This document shows, in pieces, positions 944 to 49,326 of a stretch of 64,000 bases of DNA. Under the pieces are notes generated by a model. It saw nothing but the letters and a program-made list of their open reading frames with translations. It was not told where the DNA came from and did no database searches. The translations under genes and the position numbers were made by a program. Each line of letters opens with the position of its first letter. Positions within the stretch are counted from its first letter, which is position 1. Source of the stretch: Bifidobacterium callitrichidarum (GTDB taxonomy: Bacteria; Actinomycetota; Actinomycetes; Actinomycetales; Bifidobacteriaceae). Location: positions 1 through 64,000 of the forward strand of contig NZ_QFFM01000012.1 of NCBI RefSeq assembly GCF_003129905.1, in the 5' to 3' direction.

Positions 944-963
944 CAGTACAGTGACATCAATAG

Positions 964-1036
964 AGCCTTCTGCCGGCTACGATCCGGCGACCTGCCGCTT
1001 ACAAGGCGGCTGCTCTACCAACTGAGCTAAGAAGGC
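964..1036 (-). tRNA. tRNA-Thr(UGU)
   Basis: 73-nt cloverleaf with a 7-bp acceptor stem, anticodon loop CTTGTAA and T-loop TCGTAGC, slightly divergent. CCA is not encoded. It is the last gene of the minus-strand array. Confidence 0.88.
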
Positions 1037-1278
1037 AGGCGCGAAAAACACTGGCGCTGGAACCGTCCACAAAAATACAAGGAGGTATAAAACCCAACGG
1101 CATCCATCGATTCCAACCATCCGAGAGATCATGGAAAACGGGGCTGGTGACGTTGACGCCAGTGTTTTCGCATTCGTCGAATAATCCTCCCGTCTCGACG
1201 TGACGGTCAATAAAGACGGCACCCGGTTTGCACGGGGAACATTTGGTAGCTTGATGTTTCCGCGGATGCTGGAGGTAG

Positions 1279-1352
1279 TGCGCCAGGTGGGATTCGAACC
1301 CACAACACGCGGATTTTAAGTCCGCTGCCTCTGCCGGTTGGGCTACAAGCGC
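1279..1352 (-). tRNA. tRNA with Leu anticodon UAA, short variable arm
   Basis: 74 nt. Anticodon loop CTTAAAA gives UAA. The D-arm block TAGCCCAACCGG is shared with the tRNAs at 2978 and 3190. The variable region is only about 5 nt, whereas bacterial tRNA-Leu normally has a long arm. The acceptor stem has one mismatch. Confidence 0.82.
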
Positions 1353-1450
1353 AATTGCGACGGCAAGGAAAGAACGAGAGAAGAATCTGCCGCCGCAACT
1401 GGAACATGCCCCGGTTTTCGAAAAACTATCGATATTGGGAGCACGTTTCG

Positions 1451-1522
1451 AGCGGATGACGGGAGTCGAACCCGCGTCTTCTGCTTGGAAGGCAGAAGCA
1501 CTAACCGTTGTGCTACATCCGC
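1451..1522 (-). tRNA. tRNA-Gly(UCC)
   Basis: 72 nt, acceptor GCGGATG, anticodon loop CTTCCAA, T-arm GCGGG/TTCGACT/CCCGT. Close relative of the tRNA-Gly(CCC) at 4559. Confidence 0.92.
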
Positions 1523-1687
1523 GTTTGATACGACGCTGACAGGGTTATCTGGAGGAAAGTTGAGGGAAACCTCCTGGCCTGTCATCGTTCCCGCTGTCCG
1601 GTGAAAAGAACTCAGGATGCACGATCCCGAAGATGACCGGCATCCGTTTAAGAAGCCAAAACATTGGGTGGCGTTGACGTCGCATCG

Positions 1688-1820
1688 GGCGATAGGCGGG
1701 ATTCGAACCCGCGGCTTCAAGGATCGATTAACCGAATCCCTAGTAAAGAGAGTCAGATGTAATCACAAGCCAGTGAAACACTGTCGGATAAAGGGAACCT
1801 GAAGTCTGCCGAACTATCGC
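1688..1820 (-). pseudogene. degenerate tRNA-like element, Asn-like anticodon arm
   Basis: The 3' half has a perfect T-arm (GCGGG/TTCGAAT/CCCGC) and an acceptor 3' strand CTATCGC, whose exact complement GCGATAG occurs 119 nt upstream at 1814-1820. Between them is an arm GGATT/CGGTTAATC/GATCC with a 9-nt loop containing GTT. No normal D-arm can be drawn and about 60 extra bases are present. It could be a decayed tRNA-Asn or a tRNA with an insertion. Confidence 0.45.
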
Positions 1821-1884
1821 AATAGGAATCCAATCACAATACGGAGCTATCCCGGAAGTGTATTTGTCGATGATCGGATTCCAG

Positions 1885-1956
1885 TGGATACCATCGGATT
1901 CGAACCAATACCTCCAACCCCAGGGGTTGGCGTGCTGCCTATTACACCAGACATCC
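1885..1956 (-). tRNA. tRNA-Gln(CUG), unusual anticodon loop
   Basis: 72 nt with a good acceptor (GGATGTC/GGTATCC, two GU pairs) and a Gln-like D-arm. Anticodon stem CCAAC/GTTGG closes the 7-nt loop CCCTGGG, which has C instead of U at position 33. Read centrally, the anticodon is CUG; the identity is less sure than for the others. Confidence 0.72.
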
Positions 1957-2006
1957 CGCATGCCTCCCGGGGTGTGGCATGCGTTTTAACCAAGCCAATC
2001 GGCTGG

Positions 2007-2080
2007 TGCCCTGTACTGGGCTTGAACCAGTGACCAGCGAATTATGAGTTCGCGGCTCTAACCGACTGAGCTAACAGGGC
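2007..2080 (-). tRNA. tRNA(CAU), Ile2-like or elongator Met
   Basis: 74 nt, acceptor GCCCTGT/ACAGGGC, anticodon loop CTCATAA. The variable and T region GGTCACTGGTTCAAG resembles bacterial tRNA-Ile2, whose C34 is changed to lysidine by TilS. Initiator features are absent. Confidence 0.85.
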
Positions 2081-2259
2081 AAAGAAAAGGGCCTTGATTC
2101 GGCGCGAAAAACCAGATGCTCGTTCAAGGCCTAAAACGATTGGTGTGCGTGTGATCCGTGAAAATGGCAGTCAGACATTTGAAGCAAATCAGAGAGAGAG
2201 AATTCACATGTCCATAGAATCCATTCCGTCGCATTATGAGTGGGCGGAAGTTTCGCGCG

Positions 2260-2333
2260 TGCCCTTGGCGAGGTATGATCTCGCAACCTGACGATTAGAA
2301 GTCGCCTGCTCTATCCAATTGAGCTACAGGGGC
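2260..2333 (-). tRNA. tRNA-Arg(UCU), divergent T-loop
   Basis: 74 nt. Anticodon loop CTTCTAA, D-arm canonical. The T-stem GCGAG/CTCGC pairs perfectly but the T-loop is ATCATAC instead of TTCRANY, and the acceptor has one C-A mismatch. Possibly decaying. Confidence 0.72.
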
Positions 2334-2487
2334 GTGATGCCTTTTTGGCCGGACAGGGCATCATATCCGGATTCCAAATAGCCTGGACCGTATCGTGAAG
2401 GATTGTGCACCAATCCAGGCCTGCCATGTGAGTGCGAATCGTTTTGGAAACGCCGGCTACAGGTTCCGACGTCAAGGATTGGAATCG

Positions 2488-2559
2488 TTCCCCAGCCTGA
2501 ATTCGAATCAAGAATAACGGATCCAAAGTCCGGTGTGTTGCCAGTTACACTACTGGGGA
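2488..2559 (-). tRNA. tRNA-Gln(UUG)
   Basis: 72 nt, perfect acceptor TCCCCAG/CTGGGGA, anticodon loop CTTTGGA, Gln-type D-arm GTGTAACTGGCAACAC. Confidence 0.9.
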
Positions 2560-2703
2560 TTGGGTGCGAACGTACCGGACACTCATGCCTGCAGTACGCT
2601 CCACCTTGCCGGCTTTTTCTGGTTGCAACAGTTTTTTCGATTAATCATCGCCGGCATTTGAGACCAACAGGGAACCCGTAGGGTTCGATACCTGTTGGTG
2701 TCG

Positions 2704-2787
2704 CGGATGGCATGGGAGTCGAACCCATCATCGTGTTACCGAAACCTCTTTAGCAGAGAGGCGCTTTAACCGCTCAGCCTGCCATCC
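2704..2787 (-). tRNA. tRNA-Ser(GCU)
   Basis: 84 nt, class II with a long variable arm, discriminator G, anticodon loop CTGCTAA, T-arm ATGGG/TTCGACT/CCCAT. Confidence 0.93.
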
Positions 2788-2842
2788 AAAAATAGAGGAG
2801 ACGCGGCGAGAGAAGATCAAGAAAAAGAACCGCGTCTCCAAG

Positions 2843-2928
2843 CGGAATGCGAGGGATTCGAACCCACGGAACCTTAACGGTTCAGTCGCTTTCAAGGCGA
2901 CCGCCTTCGACCGCTCGGCCAGCATTCC
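2843..2928 (-). tRNA. tRNA-Ser(UGA)
   Basis: 86 nt, class II, discriminator G, anticodon loop CTTGAAA, long variable arm. Confidence 0.93.
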
Positions 2929-2977
2929 AATAAGGTGTCCGGCAACGGGTTCAAGAGTTTCGTTGCCGGACACCTAG

Positions 2978-3051
2978 TGCTCCTGAGTGGATTCGGACCA
3001 CCACTATCGACTTTTTGGGAGTCGCGCCTCTACCGGTTGGGCTACAAGAGC
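2978..3051 (-). tRNA. tRNA with Leu anticodon CAA, short variable arm
   Basis: 74 nt. Perfect anticodon stem CGACT/AGTCG closes loop CCCAAAA, giving CAA with C at position 33. The variable region is 5 nt. Shares the TAGCCCAACCGG D-arm with the tRNAs at 1279 and 3190. Confidence 0.75.
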
Positions 3052-3189
3052 AGGCGGGTTGAACGGATTTGGCTTGAGATGATTTTACGTTCAACCCGCG
3101 GATTTCCGCCTATTTTCGCGCGTGGTCTGCGGATGCCACCATGTTTGTGTTTGTGTTGCGCTTCAGTATGACAGGATTGTCGTACAGCG

Positions 3190-3263
3190 TGCTTCCGAAG
3201 GGATTCGAACCCTTACTGGACAGATCCTAAATCTGTTGCCTCTACCGGTTGGGCTACGAAAGC
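3190..3263 (-). tRNA. tRNA with Leu anticodon UAG, short variable arm
   Basis: 74 nt, anticodon loop TTTAGGA, T-arm AAGGG/TTCGAAT/CCCTT. Third member of the short-armed Leu-anticodon family. Confidence 0.82.
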
Positions 3264-3514
3264 GGTGGCTGGCATCCTCCCGCCGCCAGCCGAGGCGGGT
3301 ACTGAAGTCCAAGCGACGGAAAAGGACTTAACGTCGCCCGGTAGTTGAGGAATGGGTTTCCTTCCAGCTCCTTCGGAAGAAATAGGAGAAGAACCATAGG
3401 AGCCGGAAGAAAAGAATAGGAACGTCGGGGATGCTTGACACACAAATAGCCAGAGAGTCAAACACCGTCAAAGACGGTGTCAATCAGTCCAAGGAAAGGA
3501 TTCCCCGACGTTAG

Positions 3515-3597
3515 TGCCTCATACGGGAATCGAACCCGTAACCCGAAAAGGGACCCGCTTTTGAGGCGAGCGCGTTTACCTGTTTCGCCAACGAGGC
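3515..3597 (-). tRNA. tRNA-Leu(CAA), class II
   Basis: 83 nt, acceptor GCCTCGT/ATGAGGC, anticodon loop CTCAAAA, long variable arm. This is the only Leu tRNA here with the normal bacterial architecture. Confidence 0.92.
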
Positions 3598-3723
3598 AAA
3601 GTGTGAGGAAACCTCGGAAATAGCACCTTGTTTGCTAACACTAGCGTTGATTCTTGCCGCTTGTGGTTTAGGAAAGTTTCCTCACACGTTTTTTCGATGC
3701 AGTGATTCTTGGTTGCATCGTAG

Positions 3724-3798
3724 TATGCGCCGGTGGACTCGAACCATCATCCTCCGGTTTTGGAGACCGGGACTCTACCGAAATTGAGCTAGACGCAT
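3724..3798 (-). tRNA. tRNA-Trp(CCA)
   Basis: 75 nt, acceptor ATGCGTC/GGCGCAT, anticodon stem CCGGT/ACCGG with loop CTCCAAA. Confidence 0.92.
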
Positions 3799-3922
3799 GT
3801 TGTAGGGAAGTCGGGGTGCCCACCATCGCGCGCAGGACAACAGTGTGTTTGGTGTTTATTTGTTGTCGTGTTTGGATGTTGTTACACAGAGAGAGAAGAA
3901 AGGAGGTTTCCGGCTTCCCTAG

Positions 3923-3996
3923 TGCCTTCGCAGGGGGTCGAACCCTGAACCTTCGGTTCCGAGGACCGATGCTCTATCCGGTTGAGCTATGAAGGC
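3923..3996 (-). tRNA. tRNA-Arg(UCG)
   Basis: 74 nt, acceptor GCCTTCA, stem TCGGT/ACCGA with loop CCTCGGA; position 33 is C, as in the tRNAs at 1885 and 2978. Confidence 0.85.
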
Positions 3997-4190
3997 TTAA
4001 AGCGGGAGAGTGGACTGGCTTTTACCACTAACGTCGAGGACAAACGGGGCCTGTCGAGATCCCCTCTGGACGTGCCGCCTGTTCGGTCGCAAACCACCCT
4101 GCCGGGCCAGGCGCATCTTACCGCCCCGTTTCCGATGCGGTTGTTCGATCACTCCCATGAGCTGGTCCGTTGATCAGACGAATCAGCTTG

Positions 4191-4264
4191 TGCCCCCACC
4201 CGGATTCGGACCGGGGTCACGCGGATTAAAAGTCCGCTGTTATGGACCGCTTAACTATAGGGGC
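4191..4264 (-). tRNA. tRNA-Lys(UUU)
   Basis: 74 nt, acceptor GCCCCTA/TGGGGGC, anticodon stem GCGGA/TCCGC with loop CTTTTAA. Confidence 0.9.
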
Positions 4265-4558
4265 TTGAATGCGGTTTTGACAGCCCGTGGCGTACCCAGC
4301 CACGTCCGTGCACTATTGACCGGTTTCTCCGAGTCTTCGGACGGTCGGCTATAGCTAGTACTCCGATCATCCTCCGGCTGTTTGAATCCGGGTTTATACC
4401 ATCGCCAACGGTTTTCCTAACCTCCCCGTCACCCGTCGTCCTCCGATACCGCGGCCTAGGATTTGCGGTTCATTGGACGATTTCGGACGGGTTCTCGACT
4501 TTCCGTGTGGCTGTCAAAACCATGTCCCGTCGAACCAAAGGGTTCGATGAGGCATTCG

Positions 4559-4630
4559 TGCGGATGACGGGAGTCGAACCCGCTTTTCCTGCTTGGGAAG
4601 CATGCGTGCTGGCCGGTGCACTACATCCGC
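4559..4630 (-). tRNA. tRNA-Gly(CCC)
   Basis: 72 nt, same acceptor and T-arm as tRNA-Gly(UCC), anticodon loop TTCCCAA, one mismatch in the anticodon stem. Confidence 0.9.
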
Positions 4631-4712
4631 GTTTGCCGTACTTTGTTCGGCCCAGTGTACGGCTGCTGGGAAAGGAGACGCCCTGATTCAGCAGGAATTG
4701 GACGCTTCCGAG

Positions 4713-4786
4713 TCGGGATGGCGGGATTTGAACCCGCGGTCTCCTGCTCCCAAAGCAGGCGCCTTACCAAACTAGGCCACATCCCG
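4713..4786 (-). tRNA. tRNA-Pro(UGG)
   Basis: 74 nt, acceptor CGGGATG/CATCCCG typical of tRNA-Pro, anticodon loop TTTGGGA. Confidence 0.94.
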
Positions 4787-4810
4787 TTTCACACCATCAT
4801 GGGTGTGTGG

Positions 4811-4891
4811 TGGCGGGGGCAGGATTCGAACCTGCGAAGCCGAAGCGACCGGTTTACAGCCGGTTCCTTTTGACCGCTTGGGTACCCCGCC
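4811..4891 (-). tRNA. tRNA-Tyr(GUA)
   Basis: 81 nt, class II, acceptor GGCGGGG/CCCCGCC, anticodon loop CTGTAAA. Confidence 0.94.
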
Positions 4892-4993
4892 AGCGACAGG
4901 GGTTTGCGGCCAACCCTTGTCACGGACTTAAGCTCGGTGGATATAGTCCTTCGACGGAAAGGAAGCGAAAACGTCGGAGGGTTCAGCCGCAAA

Positions 4994-5368
4994 TGGTGGA
5001 GCTGTCGGGAATCGAACCCGAGTCTAAGCCCTATCCTCACCGTACGTTCTACATGCTTATCCGCGACTATACCTGCGGTTCCGCTTCGCTCGCGGCGACA
5101 CTGCGGAGGACCGTCGCCAACCTGGTTACGGTGTGGATGCTCTGGTTGGCGGATCGCATCCCACCGGTTCTATTCCTTTATATCCGAACGGTTCCTAGAA
5201 CAGCGGAACCGGTTTCGGACCATCCCCGGCCTGAAATCAGGCGGCGAGGACGAGACGAGAAGAAACGTTCTTGGCGTTTATTCCGTTGACGGGTTGATAA
5301 CGGTTGTCCCGTCGGCCTCCGGCATGCTGGTATCGGTTCGATATGCTTATCGAAAACCTGTCAGCCCC
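4994..5368 (-). ncRNA. ssrA: tmRNA (transfer-messenger RNA)
   Basis: About 375 nt. The 5' end GGGGCTG (5362-5368) pairs with CAGCTCC near the 3' end, followed by A and an encoded CCA (4994-4996), the only CCA encoded in the array. The T-arm is CTCGGGTTCGATTCCCGA. An internal frame ends NAKNVSSRLVLAA-stop with TGA at 5237-5239, matching the LAA ending of proteolysis tags, and is followed by hairpins. The exact resume codon cannot be fixed by eye, but AKNVSSRLVLAA is a natural reading. It rescues stalled ribosomes and tags the product for proteolysis. A chromosomal copy is presumably also present in the host. Confidence 0.9.
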
Positions 5369-9654: not shown

Positions 9655-10026
9655 TCAGAAAATCCTGCCTCGATGGACGGGCGGCAATTCCATGGTTCTC
9701 GCCTCATCCTGATTCACATCCTCCCCCTCCATATCGGGATGCTCCTCAATACGCCTGGTGATCCGCTGCAAACGTATACGACGGCGGACAGGCATCATCA
9801 GCATCGCCAACAATCCCGCGCCAACCCAGCACAGCGCGTATACGGGTTGTTCGCGTGGATTGTAATAGTAGATGAGTCCGGCAGGAATCAGCGACATGAG
9901 CAGCATGAACACGCTCATGATGCTCATGGTGAGTTTCTCACGCCGGAGTTCCTTTTCCCCGAGTTTGCGGAACTCGTTGGTTTCGCGGATGAACATGCTG
10001 ATTTTCGGTTTGCCGGTGTTCGTCAC
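9655..10026 (-). CDS. membrane protein, 123 aa
   Basis: GTG start overlapping the stop of the upstream gene (GTGA). A basic N-terminus precedes two transmembrane segments (about residues 33-54 and 62-78), followed by an Arg-rich helix MPVRRRIRLQRITRRIEE and an acidic tail. This layout is common among PrgI-like or accessory type IV secretion proteins, but homology is not demonstrated. Confidence 0.7.
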   Translation of the reverse strand: MTNTGKPKISMFIRETNEFRKLGEKELRREKLTMSIMSVFMLLMSLIPAGLIYYYNPREQPVYALCWVGAGLLAMLMMPVRRRIRLQRITRRIEEHPDMEGEDVNQDEARTMELPPVHRGRIF

Positions 10027-10517
10027 TGCTTGTTGTCTTCCTCCTCGGCCTTGGCTTGTGCCTCGGCAAGCCGGCGTTGGTATTCGGCTTCAGCTTTCTC
10101 CTGCATCTGCTTGTCCATGCGGCTGATGGTCTTGTCTTCGAGCACGTTGAACAAATCCTGGAACAGACGGTTCAGGTTCACGTCCGGATTGTCGATGCCC
10201 ATGTCGGCCAGTGCGCGGGCGAATGCGATACCCCAGTTGTCGCAATATTGCTGCAAGGTGGGTTCGGTGTCTTCGTAGGCGAGTTGGGCCGCATCCTCGT
10301 AGGCGTCTTCGAGGATTTTCTTATGGTCTTTGACTTGCCCGCCGTTGATGGTGAGGTTGATGGTGATGGGTCGTTTCGCGGCTTTGGTTTTGCATTCCTC
10401 TTCCAACGCGGTGTTGAGGTATCGCAGGTTGGTGTAGAAGCTTTCTCGGAATTGGCTGACTTCGTTTTCGAGTTGTTCGATGGTGGGATAGTTTTCTTCT
10501 CCCCATGGGTAGCTCAT
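10023..10517 (-). CDS. coiled-coil hypothetical protein, 164 aa
   Basis: Soluble, acidic and helical: an N-terminal heptad-like region, a central strand-rich RPITINLTINGGQVK and a C-terminal Ala/Glu-rich coil (MQEKAEAEYQRRLAEAQ). GGAG lies 6 nt before the ATG, and the ATG overlaps the upstream stop. No family recognised. Confidence 0.75.
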   Translation of the reverse strand: MSYPWGEENYPTIEQLENEVSQFRESFYTNLRYLNTALEEECKTKAAKRPITINLTINGGQVKDHKKILEDAYEDAAQLAYEDTEPTLQQYCDNWGIAFARALADMGIDNPDVNLNRLFQDLFNVLEDKTISRMDKQMQEKAEAEYQRRLAEAQAKAEEEDNKQ

Positions 10518-10816
10518 TGGATTCTCCTTATTAATCTGTCAATCGGGTTCAGACTGCAGACCCAGTCGTCGTATGGTTGCGCGAAGCATATGAGTGGTAT
10601 GGTCAAGCCTACGACCGCGTAGTGGATGCCGCCGTCGATGTTGTTGGCGGCGAAGCATGCGGGCAGGAGCATCAATGCGAGCATGCAGAGGCGTAGATTC
10701 CACCAGTCCGGTGTCTCCTGACCGTATTGGAGCGCCATGATTTTCTGACCGTAGTAGGCGTTGTAGGCGGCGAGGATGAGCGCCGGGATGAGGGTGATGA
10801 TTTGTTGGCTGCTCAC
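10514..10816 (-). CDS. membrane protein, 100 aa
   Basis: Three hydrophobic segments. I prefer the GTG start at 10816 because GGAGGAG lies 6 nt upstream; a TTG at 10831 would place that site inside the gene. Translationally coupled to the next gene by ATGA. Confidence 0.68.
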   Translation of the reverse strand: MSSQQIITLIPALILAAYNAYYGQKIMALQYGQETPDWWNLRLCMLALMLLPACFAANNIDGGIHYAVVGLTIPLICFAQPYDDWVCSLNPIDRLIRRIQ

Positions 10817-10888
10817 TTGATGCTCCTCCAAAGAGTGTGACTGGTATCAGTTTATCGGTCTTTTACCGACGGAAAGACGCGCACCAAA

Positions 10889-11380
10889 CTATTCGCACAT
10901 CAGCGAAAGCCTGTTCCCCTCGACCGTCACATCACGGTCCGCATCCTCAAGATGCACGATCACCGGCCGGTCATCCAACGCCTTCGACTTCACCATCGCC
11001 GCCTTCAACGCCTTCAAATCCGGCAGCAGCTTATCCAACTGTTCCGGATTTTCGGCACCAGCCAGCTCCTCAACCCATTTCGGATAAGCGTCCACGAGAA
11101 CCGCGGACAATACCGGTGCGAACGAAGCGTACAGCCGGTTCATCGCCGCATAGAAGGAGCTGACGGATAGGAGCATCGCACGGGATGATCCGTCGTACGG
11201 GTCGTTTGCGATCTCCTTGATGGCCGACATCAGCGTGATCTCCAATGTTTTGGAGAGACAGCCGGCGGCGTTCATGACGTCGTTTTTATCATCCCAGTCG
11301 ATGGTCGTGTTATCGACCTCGGGGCGCTGCTTGTAGTTTTCAGTGTTGTCGGCGGTGATACTGTCGTTGATCTGGATCAA
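10889..11380 (-). CDS. hypothetical protein, 163 aa
   Basis: Probable TTG start (MIQINDSITADN). Mostly helical, soluble, with a C-terminal strand pair (RPVIVHLEDADRDVTV). No recognisable family. It lies in the 12409-9379 operon. The gap to the next gene (10817-10888) contains a poor copy of the shared promoter pattern. Confidence 0.7.
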   Translation of the reverse strand: MIQINDSITADNTENYKQRPEVDNTTIDWDDKNDVMNAAGCLSKTLEITLMSAIKEIANDPYDGSSRAMLLSVSSFYAAMNRLYASFAPVLSAVLVDAYPKWVEELAGAENPEQLDKLLPDLKALKAAMVKSKALDDRPVIVHLEDADRDVTVEGNRLSLMCE

Positions 11381-41953: not shown

Positions 41954-42652
41954 AAGATTTTATCGAGTAGAAAGTGGTCTTCCATCTTTAATGAGATCGC
42001 ATTTCCTTTCTAGGAATCTAAGTTCACGCCGGTATTGCTGTTCCATGATGGAATGGACGTAATTTTCCATGTAATCATAGTCAGGCTCACCTTCATCGTT
42101 CATAGGAAGCATGACCTGTAAACGCTCGGCCCGCTTGGTGCCAAGTTTGCGACTGTAACTGAAGCAAGCACTCTGCATCGAAATAGCAACAGTGACAAAC
42201 ATGCCTACGAACTCGTTGTTGTCTGCTTCCTTCAGATGTAGTTTCCGGCAATCATTGCCCATGAGAGACGGGTAGGGATGATAAAAAGCCTTGCCGACAG
42301 CACCGTTACGATTAAGGGCGATGTATCCGCTATCAATCTTGTCGTTCATGTTATTCACGAAATATCCGATACCGTTATTCGCGCTCCCTGATGTGATGTA
42401 AGGAGTTCGACCGGCTTCTCGTTCCTGCGCATAGATGTCTCGCCCTGAAGAAATCCGGCCAATGGATGCCAGAGGGAACGGCATCCAAACCTTCTCATCA
42501 AGCGGAATAACCGGCTCAGTTACTCTCTCTATTTCCTCAAGTCGGCGTGCCAGGAATTCACGGCATCGCTCGACCTGCACGGCCTCGCGTTCACGGATGT
42601 AGTCCTCCATGAACTGCCAGTCCGGCTCACCGGCATCGTCGATTGGAAGCAT

Positions 42653-42660
42653 AACTTTAG
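42653..42660. repeat. 8-bp target duplication, left copy
   Basis: TAACTTTA, repeated at 42785-42792 on the other side of the element. Confidence 0.85.
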
Positions 42661-42784
42661 GCTCTGTTAAACCAAGATTGACATGAATCCATGTCTGGCT
42701 ACCCCTCAGTCGGCTTCGCCGACAGCTCCCCTGACAAGGGGAGCCGAGAATAAGGGCCATGTCAATCTTGGTTTAACAGAGCCT
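42661..42784. mobile_element. 124-bp MITE with 26-bp perfect terminal inverted repeats
   Basis: Ends 42661-42686 and 42759-42784 are perfect inverted complements (GGCTCTGTTAAACC... outward). The centre carries hairpins CGGCTTCGCCG and GCTCCCCTGACAAGGGGAGC. The 8-bp duplication and the GGCTCTGTTAAA end fit a non-autonomous relative of the ISL3 family. No transposase inside. Confidence 0.88.
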
Positions 42785-43181
42785 AACTTTAAGAGCCCTT
42801 AGACGTTTACTGCTGATGGAATGACCATGACCGAATGGGGCTCGCTGCTCCGACATCGCTGCGGCGACGAATTGCATTACTTGACGAGACAGAGGATTAC
42901 GTGGACTTAGCGCCGTTACATGTGTATCGAGAGCAAAACTCATAGGCTGATAGTAGGCAAGCCCCGCACCGCCGTCACCGTCGTTGTTCAGAGTTACAAC
43001 ATGACCATTGTGCAATCGCTCACGAGAAACGTCGACAAATGCCTTAACTCCGTTCCCTGTGTTACGCGCAGAAATAAGCGGCACGTCACCAGAACCAAGT
43101 GACGCCATATTTTTCTCGGTACCGCGCTCCGGCTTGAACAAGTCTACGATTCTGAAATCAGCCCACTCCCTATCGTCTAGA

Positions 43182-45098
43182 CTAAGCATTCTCACCTTCC
43201 TCGAATAGATATCCGCGTCCGTGGCTAACCATGTCGAGTTGGAACGTCAGGTAGTCGGCGATTGCTTTTTCGAAATCGGCGTCTGTTGGGATTTCGTCGT
43301 TGAAGTAGTAGAAGCTGTGGAGCCATTCGTCGTCTGGTTTGACGGTGGATTTCACGCAGAACTTCGATGGTGCTTCCACTGTGTTATTCCAAACGTCGAG
43401 CAGGTGTGCGCGCTTGTCTTTTGCGGAGTCTCCTTCAACGAGACCTACATGTGCGCGGACTTCGTAACCGTCGTTGCGGAAGTCGATGAACTTGGCCACA
43501 TGGCTCGGATCGTGTGGTTCTCCTGCGGTGAATACTGCGATGACGGGATTGGTTCCGACACCGTAGAACGTGTCCGGATTGCAGGTGATGACGCCTTCAA
43601 GCGTATGCTTCCGCATGATTGATTCCTTGAATCGGGCCTCATCCTTCGTTTTCCCGGTCATGGAGGATTGCGGGACGATGACGGCTACACGTGCTCCCTC
43701 GACGCAGGAGTCCAGGAGATGTTCCACGAACGAAATCTCATACTGTTCCGGGTCGGCTTTCGAACCTTGACTGTATGGCGGGTTCATCAATCCGACGGTG
43801 GCGCCCTTGAGCTGCACTTGTGCGGGGTTTTCCTTGAGGAAGTCGCAGCAGGCAAGATTGCTGTTGCCGTCACGTCGGAGGATCATGTTCGCGCAGGCTA
43901 CGGCGAACATGTTCGACTGGAGTTCGAACCCGTGGAGCTGCTTTTTCTTGATGTTTCGACGCTGGTTCTCGGTTTTTGCGTTCGCTAGCATGCGGTGCAT
44001 CGCTGATAGGAGATACCCTCCGGTGCCACATGTTGGGTCCAGCACGATATCGTCCGGTGTGACGTTGACGAGATCGCACATGAGGTCACAGATGTGTCTT
44101 GGCGTGAGGACGATGCCGAGGGATTGTCCGTCGCCTCCTGAGTAGCTCATGAATTCGCCGTAGAATCGTCCGATGAAATCTTCGGACGTTTTCTGGTATT
44201 TGATGCTGCGGAACACCTTGTCGTACAGGAACTCCGTATACGCTTTCAACGGCGTCTTTTTCAGGGTCTCATTGATTTCGTTGAGACGGAAGCTTGTTTG
44301 GAGGATAGAGAATTCGGAAAGAAGCTTGTCCTTTTTTGCGTCCGGGCCAACATTGGAGCGTGTCAGACGGGCTCTGACGGCATTCATCAGCTTATCGCCG
44401 TCTCGCGCGTCTTTGGTCTGATCGCCGGTCAATGAGTCGATGGAGAAATTGCCGTATTCGATTTCATCGAGTGCGAGCAGAATACCTGCGACGACCAGCG
44501 GCTTGTCCTGATCCTTGATGGTGCCGTAAGTGCGTAACGCCTCATGCAGTTCGGCGGCATCCTTGAGGATTTCTGCCGTCGTCTTTTCAACATCGGTCGC
44601 TTCTTCGAGCACATATCGCGTGTAGTACTCGAATATATTGTCCGGTGAGAACGAAACGAACGATTCCAGGTCAGGAAGCTGCTTGTATCCTTCGCGGTCA
44701 TCAACATACAGCGGAGTGATCCGGTGATGTTTTTCGTCACCGGAAACCCCTAGTGCGAAGACCTTTTTGAACGAACTGTTTACGGCAATGTGCTTGGCGT
44801 AGAAGTATGCGCCGTTGACGGCATAATCGGTGACGGCTTTCACGGACATGTCGAGCACATCATTGTCGTCAAGGCGTATCTGCTTATCCAGATCGGCCTT
44901 GTCTTCTATGACCAGCACGAACTGACCTATAACCGCCACATACTCCGGATAACCGGCTTTTCCGGTTCCTCTTTTCGAGGCTGTCTTCAATGCTTCATCG
45001 ATTTCCTTGACGTTGCTGCCTTGCGCGTCGTATTTTATGCCGCACTCGTCCAGTTGCTTAGCAACCCATAAGTCCGTTCGTACTTCCTTTTTCGCCAT
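43182..45098 (-). CDS. BcgI-like nuclease-methyltransferase subunit
   Basis: 638 aa. The N-terminal 150 residues have a PD-(D/E)XK-type GYPEYVAVIGQFVLVIEDKAD. The centre is an N6-adenine methylase: DPTCGTGGYLLSAMHRM (SAM binding) and NPPYSQ (catalysis) follow an HsdM-like helical region. A nuclease plus methylase in one chain with a separate specificity subunit is the BcgI (type IIB) arrangement. Start MAKKEVRTDLWVAKQL has AAAGG upstream and overlaps the ligase stop (TAATG). Confidence 0.85.
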   Translation of the reverse strand: MAKKEVRTDLWVAKQLDECGIKYDAQGSNVKEIDEALKTASKRGTGKAGYPEYVAVIGQFVLVIEDKADLDKQIRLDDNDVLDMSVKAVTDYAVNGAYFYAKHIAVNSSFKKVFALGVSGDEKHHRITPLYVDDREGYKQLPDLESFVSFSPDNIFEYYTRYVLEEATDVEKTTAEILKDAAELHEALRTYGTIKDQDKPLVVAGILLALDEIEYGNFSIDSLTGDQTKDARDGDKLMNAVRARLTRSNVGPDAKKDKLLSEFSILQTSFRLNEINETLKKTPLKAYTEFLYDKVFRSIKYQKTSEDFIGRFYGEFMSYSGGDGQSLGIVLTPRHICDLMCDLVNVTPDDIVLDPTCGTGGYLLSAMHRMLANAKTENQRRNIKKKQLHGFELQSNMFAVACANMILRRDGNSNLACCDFLKENPAQVQLKGATVGLMNPPYSQGSKADPEQYEISFVEHLLDSCVEGARVAVIVPQSSMTGKTKDEARFKESIMRKHTLEGVITCNPDTFYGVGTNPVIAVFTAGEPHDPSHVAKFIDFRNDGYEVRAHVGLVEGDSAKDKRAHLLDVWNNTVEAPSKFCVKSTVKPDDEWLHSFYYFNDEIPTDADFEKAIADYLTFQLDMVSHGRGYLFEEGENA

Positions 45099-46543
45099 TA
45101 AGCACCTTTCTTTTCGTTGGAAACCTGTTCTGCTGAATCGAGCGCGTCCAGGATCAGCCCGACTTTCGTCATATCCACGTCCCTGCTGAATCCTTGCGGC
45201 TGCCATGTCAGGTCGATTCCGTGCCTGTTCGCGTAGTCGAGTACTTTGCGAGCATCACCCTGAACCGGCTTACCTCGTAGGAGAGCACGTTGCAGCATGG
45301 GGCGTAGGGACTTGATACGCCGGTACCGGTTGGACTTCACCTTCACCATCCACCCGTCGTTGAAGTAGAGGACCACGCCTTCGCGTTCGCTGTTAAACGC
45401 TTGGTCGATGGCATGCTCCAGTTCCTCGCGAGAGTTGCAGACGTAGGCGGACGGTCGATGGAATCCACCGATTTCAGCGAACCGCTCCTGTACCTGCTGG
45501 TCTGCGATCTGGAATTTCTCCTGATTACGGACCAAGTGGATGAAGCAAAGTTCCGGCTCATCGTAATGGATGATGTGCCGGTCTGAATCCGGGACGATGG
45601 CTTCGAACAATGCGGTGACATTGTTGTCGTGGAGGATGTTCCACAAGCCTTCTCGCACAGCCGGTTCCTTCGGGAAAAAGTGTTCCACCAGCTTTGAATA
45701 GTCGGTTGCGCCGCTCTTCGAAAAGAAACGGAACTCCCCCGGCTTATCGGCTGCACCGACCAGGCCGAGAAAACCGTTCTCCTTGGATTCAACCCGCACC
45801 GGATACGCATTGTGATTCAGCACGTTCTCGCGGCTGGTTTCCCCCTTCTCGTCAACGGCGAAGAACTTCTCGAAACCACGCATAATCACACGCCCAGTGT
45901 GGTCGAGGAACAGGCCGCGCGCGTTCAACGTTCGATGCGTCCAACGTCCACCGGCGAAAGCGTCGCGCGTGAAGTTACAAGCGAACAGGTCGGTTTCACC
46001 GGCGACGGCGTTGACTCGCACGTCCGGATCGGCTTGCATGCGTTCCAACAGGTTGCCGTTCGGGTTCGGCAGACTAACCGGCTGGAACATGTTGGCATGG
46101 CAACGCTCGTACTGGCTGCGAATATATTCGGGGTCAACGTAGGCACCGCCGGTGCGCTGCGCGTTGCGTTCCAACAGGGTTTCCAACGGTTGGTCGAAAT
46201 CCTTGGTTTCCCAAACCGCATGATGCTTCACGGCAAGCAGGGCGAGTTCGGATGCGAACTCCGGTTGCGCGTGCTGCGCGTCCGCGATCACGTTCCATCC
46301 GGCGTCGAGCAGGTCGGCGATGGTGTGGCGGGAGGTTTTCACTACGAGTTGGGTGAATTCCTTGCGCCGCTTGGACGCGAGGATTCGATCCCGGTTCTCC
46401 CATGTGCCGGCGAACATGAGCCGCAGGTCGTCCAGTGAGACGATGGTCCACGGGTGGCCGGTTGACTGGGCGGCGACATACTGTTTCGCCCACGTGGTTT
46501 TACCACTTCCCGGTAGTCCTCTGAGGATAATGAGCTTGACCAT
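45098..46543 (-). CDS. polynucleotide kinase - RNA ligase (Rnl1-type) fusion
   Basis: 481 aa. Residues 1-150: P-loop kinase, LIILRGLPGSGKTTWAKQY, VSLDDLR and IADAQH, like the 5'-kinase of phage T4 Pnkp. Residues about 190-460: T4 RnlA-like ligase, with MRGFEKFF and motif I ESKENGFLG, where the lysine would take AMP. It could phosphorylate and reseal cut RNA, such as tRNA halves. No phosphatase domain is obvious. A longer upstream frame (to 46624) is a shadow. Confidence 0.85.
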   Translation of the reverse strand: MVKLIILRGLPGSGKTTWAKQYVAAQSTGHPWTIVSLDDLRLMFAGTWENRDRILASKRRKEFTQLVVKTSRHTIADLLDAGWNVIADAQHAQPEFASELALLAVKHHAVWETKDFDQPLETLLERNAQRTGGAYVDPEYIRSQYERCHANMFQPVSLPNPNGNLLERMQADPDVRVNAVAGETDLFACNFTRDAFAGGRWTHRTLNARGLFLDHTGRVIMRGFEKFFAVDEKGETSRENVLNHNAYPVRVESKENGFLGLVGAADKPGEFRFFSKSGATDYSKLVEHFFPKEPAVREGLWNILHDNNVTALFEAIVPDSDRHIIHYDEPELCFIHLVRNQEKFQIADQQVQERFAEIGGFHRPSAYVCNSREELEHAIDQAFNSEREGVVLYFNDGWMVKVKSNRYRRIKSLRPMLQRALLRGKPVQGDARKVLDYANRHGIDLTWQPQGFSRDVDMTKVGLILDALDSAEQVSNEKKGA

Positions 46544-46545
46544 TA

Positions 46546-46803
46546 TTAGTAGACTTTCTTCAGGACGTGATTCCAGTCGCAGGAAATCGACTGGAATGTG
46601 GTGTCGGCGTCTACGACGAGGCATTTAATTCGGCTACCATCATCCAACCGGTAATACCGGGTGATGGCGTCTTCGGTTCGCGGCGAATCCAATGTTCCAT
46701 CGGACTGGAAATAGTGTTCTGTAAAGGCGAAGAGTCCGACGAGGAGCGTCAGGGCCAGAATCGAGATTCCGACCATGACGCTCCTCAGAGTCCAATCCTT
46801 CAT
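46546..46803 (-). CDS. membrane-anchored protein, 85 aa
   Basis: N-terminal transmembrane segment (residues about 8-28), then a small extracytoplasmic domain RYYRLDDGSRIKCLVVDAD with two cysteines. Coupled to 46800 by ATGA. Confidence 0.75.
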   Translation of the reverse strand: MKDWTLRSVMVGISILALTLLVGLFAFTEHYFQSDGTLDSPRTEDAITRYYRLDDGSRIKCLVVDADTTFQSISCDWNHVLKKVY

Positions 46804-48402: not shown

Positions 48403-49326
48403 CTAGTTTTTCGCCGCAGTCCGAATGGCTTCGGTTAGTTGTGTATAAGCAGTCCGCAGCTCCTCGTATCGGGCGTTGAGAACCGTGTTCTTCATGCGAA
48501 GCTTGTCCAATTCGGTTTCCTGGAATCCATATCCCTTGTTCTTTAACCGGACAACATAGTTCCTTTGATCGGTTAAGTCCCGGTTAAGTTTCGAGTTAAT
48601 GGCTTCCAATTCGGCTATACGTTCAGTCATCGCTGTTGCATCATTGAAGGCGACGATGCTTTTCGTGGCGTTCACGATCATCTCCGGCAGTTCGCAAACC
48701 TGCTCCTGCTCCAACAGTTGGAACCAGCTGCGCATCATAAACGCGGTCAACGGTGGAACGTCTTCACGCGGTACGATTATCGGCTGCTTGCTTTCCAATG
48801 TTTTCGTTGTAAAAGCGCAGTCAAACATCCATTGGGCCATGGTCGTATAACTGAGCGGAAACCATTCCTTATACCGTAAGGTGTATTTCTTCTCTACCTT
48901 GCGACCGCTAGGCGTCAGGAACACATGAGCCTTGCGATAGGTCGGATATACCGCCCTCAGATGGTCGTAATATTTGTCCAACTGGTCGGCGGAGAGTTTG
49001 GCGAACACCTTATTCTCGATGCAGATAACAGCCTTGTTGCCCATGTCTACGATAAGCAGGTCAATGTCCGCTTTCTCCCGGTATACCTTGATATCCATGC
49101 TGGGTTTCAGACCGGGGAGGCAGAATGCGTACAGTTTCTTCAGCAGGCCGCGTCTTAACCCGTGGTTGTTGTGCGGGTTCAGGAGATATGCGAGATAGTT
49201 GGAATGTTTGATTTCCTGATGTCCCATGCCGATGATTGAGAACACATTGTCCTCGTGGTTGATGATGGGTTTGCTGGAATGCTGGGCCTGGTTTTTCAGT
49301 TGTCGGCGGGTCACGACTTCGGACAT
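48403..49326 (-). CDS. PD-(D/E)XK nuclease-like protein
   Basis: 307 aa. HSNYLAYLLNPHNNHGL, IDLLIVDMG and VICIENKVFAKLSADQL carry the D and ExK residues of the PD-(D/E)XK superfamily (PF14281-like). The last 80 residues are coiled-coil. Likely a defence or DNA-processing nuclease; the operon also holds a phosphoesterase and a Cys-rich protein. Confidence 0.82.
   Translation of the reverse strand: MSEVVTRRQLKNQAQHSSKPIINHEDNVFSIIGMGHQEIKHSNYLAYLLNPHNNHGLRRGLLKKLYAFCLPGLKPSMDIKVYREKADIDLLIVDMGNKAVICIENKVFAKLSADQLDKYYDHLRAVYPTYRKAHVFLTPSGRKVEKKYTLRYKEWFPLSYTTMAQWMFDCAFTTKTLESKQPIIVPREDVPPLTAFMMRSWFQLLEQEQVCELPEMIVNATKSIVAFNDATAMTERIAELEAINSKLNRDLTDQRNYVVRLKNKGYGFQETELDKLRMKNTVLNARYEELRTAYTQLTEAIRTAAKN

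Follow-up and report, generated by a model that had tools for sequence, protein, structure and literature searches.

What becomes of a two-subunit restriction system when a short transposable element lands inside its specificity gene, and where does such an element come from? Both questions are raised by a locus in the window, the 64,000-nucleotide stretch of Bifidobacterium callitrichidarum DNA analyzed here. Sequence comparison identifies the replicon as a Bifidobacterium megaplasmid resembling pMP7017 and not the chromosome, because an RNA ligase of the window is 67–69% identical to those of five Bifidobacterium megaplasmids, including NZ_KM406416, its tRNA genes match the same plasmid group, and 18 tRNA genes stand in tandem with a tmRNA at 963–5368, an arrangement also reported for pMP7017 (PMC10832533). 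NZ_KM406416 is a B. breve record of 190,178 bp, and its equation with pMP7017 rests on species, size and gene content.

The interrupted locus encodes what sequence and profile comparisons support as a BcgI-like (Type IIB) restriction-modification system, the identity that the initial annotation had proposed. Its restriction-modification (RM) subunit, a 638-residue fusion of an N-terminal PD-(D/E)XK nuclease and a gamma-type N6-adenine methyltransferase, is indeed intact (43182–45098, minus strand) and keeps both a PExK-type nuclease motif (P51, E65, K67) and the NPPY motif (439–442). These residues, together with D354-P355 and G358-T359, are invariant in 16 homologues. The protein matches the PADLOC Type IIG model over its full length (E=7e-168), with profile matches to PDLC03602, across nearly all of its 637 positions, and to PDLC03591. 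It shares 44% identity over 98% of the sequence with the enzymes of the Staphylococcus aureus phage phi42 type, one relative being annotated bcgIA/bcgIB, and 80% identity with two Bifidobacterium relatives. Its structure model aligns with the RM subunit of BsaXI and with BpuSI over ~650 columns. The specificity (S) gene follows directly downstream, its ATG overlapping the RM stop, and is laid out as two TRDs and two conserved helices (CR1 and CR2). Upstream, the stop of an RNA ligase/kinase gene (45098–46624, minus strand) overlaps the RM start, and the two genes probably form one operon. A further PD-(D/E)XK nuclease (PDDEXK_4) at 48403–49326 matches the PADLOC candidate defence family PDC-S26.

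Homologous systems vary in several ways. Tandem TRD-CR modules lie downstream of RM at loci L205, L206, L208, L209 and L212, as if specificity cassettes accumulate, and specificity or RM genes are broken in other Bifidobacterium copies of the BcgI-like system (L113:300–1500, L116 and L115/L122): the S frames shift in genome G017, RM is split by a stop in G032, and RM lies in two pieces on separate contigs in G026.

In the window, the S gene is interrupted by a 124-bp element at 42660–42783 that begins and ends in perfect 26-bp inverted repeats, GGCTCTGTTAAACCAAGATTGACATG at 42660–42685 on the plus strand and its perfect complement at 42758–42783 on the minus strand. On inspection of the sequence, the element is flanked by direct repeats of TAACTTTA at 42652–42659 and 42784–42791, identical at 8/8 positions, a match expected by chance at ~2e-5 for the composition of the window and ~1e-4 for AT-rich sites. 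The element is short, is devoid of a transposase and has terminal inverted repeats, a target duplication and many copies, all as in a MITE. Once it is deleted together with one copy of the duplication (132 bp), ...LRALKV runs on into MLPIDD... in a single open frame. The initial description of a 124-bp MITE with a perfect 8-bp duplication, splitting the gene at LRALKV/MLPIDD, thus holds to the base. Both parts of S hit the same Type II specificity model, two Methylase_S hits flank the MITE, and alignment places the insertion exactly at the TRD1|CR1 boundary. Homologous S genes run continuously across this point, both in L203 and in L114, which is one of the two 80%-identical relatives and has an uninterrupted S gene of 361 codons. 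Among the phages, plasmids and viral contigs searched, uninterrupted homologues were the sole counterparts, with no empty site in an identical plasmid.

Could the join itself be an assembly artefact at a repeat that occurs ~57 times? The host genome is a draft of 72 contigs, several of which end at copies of the MITE. A false join would, however, produce neither identical 8-bp flanks nor S halves that lie in frame, and short reads are usually longer than the element. Since a repeat misjoin yields no matching duplication or restored frame, we consider an artefact extremely improbable.

The MITE belongs to a large family in this host. The initial annotation had suggested counting its copies there; in the 3.12-Mb genome the 26-bp repeat was found 56 times in forward and 57 times in reverse orientation (≤2 mismatches; reversed control 0), or about 57 repeat pairs, these totals being search tallies. 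Related independent copies, in the host and in other genomes, are also flanked by 8-bp duplications rich in AT (77%). Two others in the host are identical to the window copy and the remaining 27 of the 30 compared are 89–98% identical, so that the window copy is young. When insertions with recognizable duplications (≤2 mismatches) were considered, only 2 of the 43 interrupted a frame with >150 codons on each side, namely the window copy and L010; most lay at gene ends or past them. The repeat was absent from the viral contigs searched, and plasmid matches, in Deinococcus, covered only the inner part of the MITE. A related MITE family in genome G052 (loci L153–L160) has two unlike ends, GGCTCTGTTAAACCAGAATTGACATG and GGCTCTGTTAAACCAACTTTGACATA-like, one of which is an end sequence common to the IS1595 transposons described below.

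The origin of the element had initially been sought in an ISL3-type parent, and this attribution was not borne out. ISL3 elements share with the MITE a GGCTCT repeat start and 8-bp AT-rich duplications, but their ends differ, reading GGCTCTTCGGGTG... or similar in one relative as against the GGCTCTGTTAAACC type of the MITE. The best ISL3 hit in the host is a fragment at 21.1 bits, below the cut-off, and the ISL3 transposases of relatives all have ends unlike those of the MITE, so that an ISL3 parent was rejected. An IS256/IS1249 parent was likewise rejected, as two such transposases are present in the host but the inverted repeats around them are different. The MITE is best filed, from its ends, as a derivative of the IS1595 family. 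Contig C23 of the host encodes an IS1595-family transposase (NF033547, 130.8 bits against a cut-off of 75) within an intact transposon of 4507 bp, whose ends, GGCTCTGTTAAACCAGAATTGACGTG and GGCTCTGTTAAACCAGAATTGACATA, match the MITE repeat at 23/26 and 22/26 positions and which is flanked by a perfect 8-bp duplication, AAAATAAT. In seven more genomes of Bifidobacterium, IS1595 transposases likewise have a repeat of this type ahead of them. The shared ends point to mobilization of the MITE by the host IS1595 transposase, which we infer from them.

Besides its transposase, the host transposon carries a Type IIG restriction-methyltransferase of 1029 residues (610 bits) and a RelB-like protein. 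It lies near the 3′ end of an MmeI-like (Type IIL) gene (L233:197–5990, contig C23), the C-terminus of which resumes beyond the element. Another six elements that retain both ends were detected in genomes G070, G068, G031, G010, G060 and G004; five of the six have exact 8-bp duplications, and in G070 the duplicate of TCATTTTT is offset by one base. With the host element at L233:1252–5758, the complete set comprises L234:8415–11730, L235:1636–5563, L236:1988–5908, L238:2196–6411, L239:2256–5737 and L240:1754–5679. Each of the seven carries a gene for a DNA methyltransferase or for Type II restriction: an N6_N4_Mtase in G070, N6_Mtase/Eco57I proteins of 845/847 residues in G068 and G004, an N6_Mtase with a specificity domain in G031 (1040 residues) and G010 (932 residues), and an N6_N4_Mtase with an unknown protein of 319 residues in G060. 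These transposons resemble other IS1595 insertion sequences and transposons in matching the transposase model and in having inverted repeats that start with GG, 8-bp duplications and passengers between the ends; they differ from the family at large in this constant cargo (7/7) and in sharing their ends with a MITE family that numbers about 57 copies. Beyond the genus, no such transposon was found in 394 other actinomycete-class genomes (E≤1e-15). Passenger genes are a general feature of some IS families (PMC7986276), and movement of an IS-linked restriction system has been reported (PMC3031569). The literature searched held no published account of an RM-carrying IS1595 lineage, which is not proof of novelty. 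The lineage appears specialized in moving restriction-modification genes in bifidobacteria and bears on the gain and loss of barriers to DNA uptake in these gut bacteria; in our view it is the most interesting by-product of this analysis.

One might go further and propose that a lineage always equipped with methyltransferase or Type II restriction cargo uses its elements and MITEs to disable competing restriction systems or to change their specificity; in the host strain the full element sits in the MmeI-like gene, and the MITE splits the BcgI-like S gene, on this reading perhaps into a new palindromic specificity. We regard this as doubtful. That the element and the MITE each struck a restriction gene in this strain amounts to two cases among about 57 insertions, which gives no evidence of targeting.

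What does the split gene still encode? Its 5′ part, TRD1 deprived of the CR1 helix, occupies 42773–43189 on the minus strand, from an ATG at 43189–43187 to a TAA at 42775–42773 that is made by the MITE; its last three residues are MITE-coded and fall at the TRD1 boundary. At an ATG within the MITE, 12 nt past this stop, a second frame opens and runs to the natural end of the gene (41960–42760, minus strand). It spans 266 codons and consists of a 36-residue leader derived from the MITE followed by CR1-TRD2-CR2, with the specificity-derived part beginning at the ATG at 42652–42650. The frame is kept into CR1-TRD2-CR2 because MITE and duplication together measure 132 bp. The equivalent frame is closed in most 123-bp copies of the MITE, and so its being open here reflects chance and not selection. 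In the predicted structure of the 266-residue product, the CR helices are modelled with confidence at 48–77 and 228–258, the leader is disordered, and the fold is that of S subunits from Type I systems and from BsaXI.

The reading that we prefer is that the native specificity is lost and the system is probably inactive. On this reading a MITE derived from the host's own RM-carrying IS1595-family transposon jumped into the S gene, making the 8-bp duplication, and cut it exactly between TRD1 and the CR1 helix so that TRD1 was orphaned. Assembly of the RM subunit into the native (RM)2S complex would then be prevented, and native cleavage and native methylation would both have gone. BcgI-like enzymes need both subunits for each of these activities (PMC3874165). 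The insertion would have been tolerated because the simultaneous loss of cleavage and methylation is harmless to the cell. Loss of the native specificity is nearly certain and loss of all activity likely: TRD1 is without CR1, and the first start codon open to the second half is enclosed in a strong predicted mRNA hairpin (−86.6 kcal/mol, z −8.9). Set against this are the completeness of CR1-TRD2-CR2, its confidently modelled helices and a start codon only 12 nt past the stop. The initial annotation had held that the element blocks both cleavage and methylation; for the native activities we retain this, while a full block overstates the case, as the MITE provides a start codon for the still open CR1-TRD2-CR2 frame and such halves can act in BsaXI and Type I systems.

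The principal alternative is accordingly that translation re-initiates on the second frame and two copies of the CR1-TRD2-CR2 product pair through their helices, with RM acting at a new palindromic bipartite site built of two TRD2 half-sites. Half-S proteins have precedents in the Tn5 insertion in EcoDXXI hsdS, in deletion constructs and in the natural NgoAV system, and halves of the Type I EcoDXXI S subunit give palindromic specificities (PMC3874165). In BsaXI the very same fragment has been expressed and purified and nicks DNA with the RM subunit (PMC9159934), which makes some residual activity conceivable here. That activity, however, was limited to partial nicking, whereas the new palindromic specificity with good activity belonged to the TRD1-CR1 form (PMC9159934). 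Moreover, the ATG of the second frame is buried in the hairpin, inspection found no Shine-Dalgarno-like sequence upstream of it, and the frame is open by chance. We therefore judge remodelling of this kind to be rather unlikely, although it is the strongest of the competing readings. A different outcome, assembly of the TRD1 fragment, CR1-TRD2-CR2 and RM into a complex of native specificity, has a parallel in EcoDXXI, whose N- and C-terminal S halves regain wild-type activity when expressed apart in the same cell (PMC3874165). Here, however, the TRD1 half is devoid of CR1 and so of the helix that keeps the two halves joined, and a BsaXI variant from which the whole of CR1 was deleted was poorly expressed (PMC9159934); such complementation is highly unlikely.

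A BcgI-type S gene elsewhere in the host that could act in trans was considered and set aside as unlikely, as the other S-domain genes lie in two clusters that are probably of Type I. These clusters, at C5:85714–92530 and C65:1455–5610, hold four and three specificity domains in opposed orientations and are probably invertible Type I specificity loci.

If the system is silent, might it be switched on again? Loss of the 132 bp would restore the frame exactly, and precise excision restoring the S gene, as initially proposed, is possible in principle on the evidence of the sequence. Short direct repeats on either side of a strong hairpin favour deletion by slippage, which makes a rare event of this kind possible; the process is established for the precise excision of Tn5/Tn10-type elements. 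A relative on contig IMGVR_UViG_2907546677 (L203), whose RM is 82% and TRD2 region 67% identical to those of the window, has an S gene (9900–11150) in which CR1 ends in a GA tract of 21 nt that currently breaks the frame; the corresponding site of the window (42523–42530, minus strand) reads (AG)4. Slippage of this tract could plausibly switch the frame in L203, whose Type IIB specificity gene is thus likely to be phase-variable, and the specificity gene emerges as a recurrent point of change. A reversible switch in the window, with regular precise excision between the 8-bp repeats and a mixed population, is another matter. The host assembly holds no empty copy of the split locus, excision of IS-type elements is normally rare and unprogrammed, and the MITE copies found all resemble ordinary insertions, with no sign of a programmed switch. 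We give this reading slightly less credence even than complementation between the halves, and retain silencing of the native system as the best explanation.

Insertion of a MITE into a restriction gene is an already known kind of event. The present case documents a route by which a restriction barrier borne on a megaplasmid is lost or re-targeted through a transposable element of the host, and it offers a natural Type IIB counterpart of split S subunits hitherto made in vitro. Like the BcgI/Sau42I-type Type IIB systems (Type IIG multimeric), the locus has a fusion of ~638 residues followed by a two-TRD S gene with an overlapping start; it differs from them in that the S gene is interrupted by a MITE and lies on a Bifidobacterium megaplasmid. 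BsaXI, also of Type IIB, shares the TRD1-CR1-TRD2-CR2 layout, and the split leaves precisely the CR1-TRD2-CR2 form studied there in vitro, although the BsaXI variants were engineered while this split is natural. The BsaXI RM subunit is also longer (a chain of about 915 residues) and matches the RM of the window by fold and not by sequence search. In the Type I systems EcoDXXI hsdS::Tn5 and NgoAV, a break by transposon or frameshift likewise leaves half-S proteins; these keep the N-terminal half with a helix, whereas the S gene of the window, in a Type IIB system, keeps the C-terminal half with both helices.
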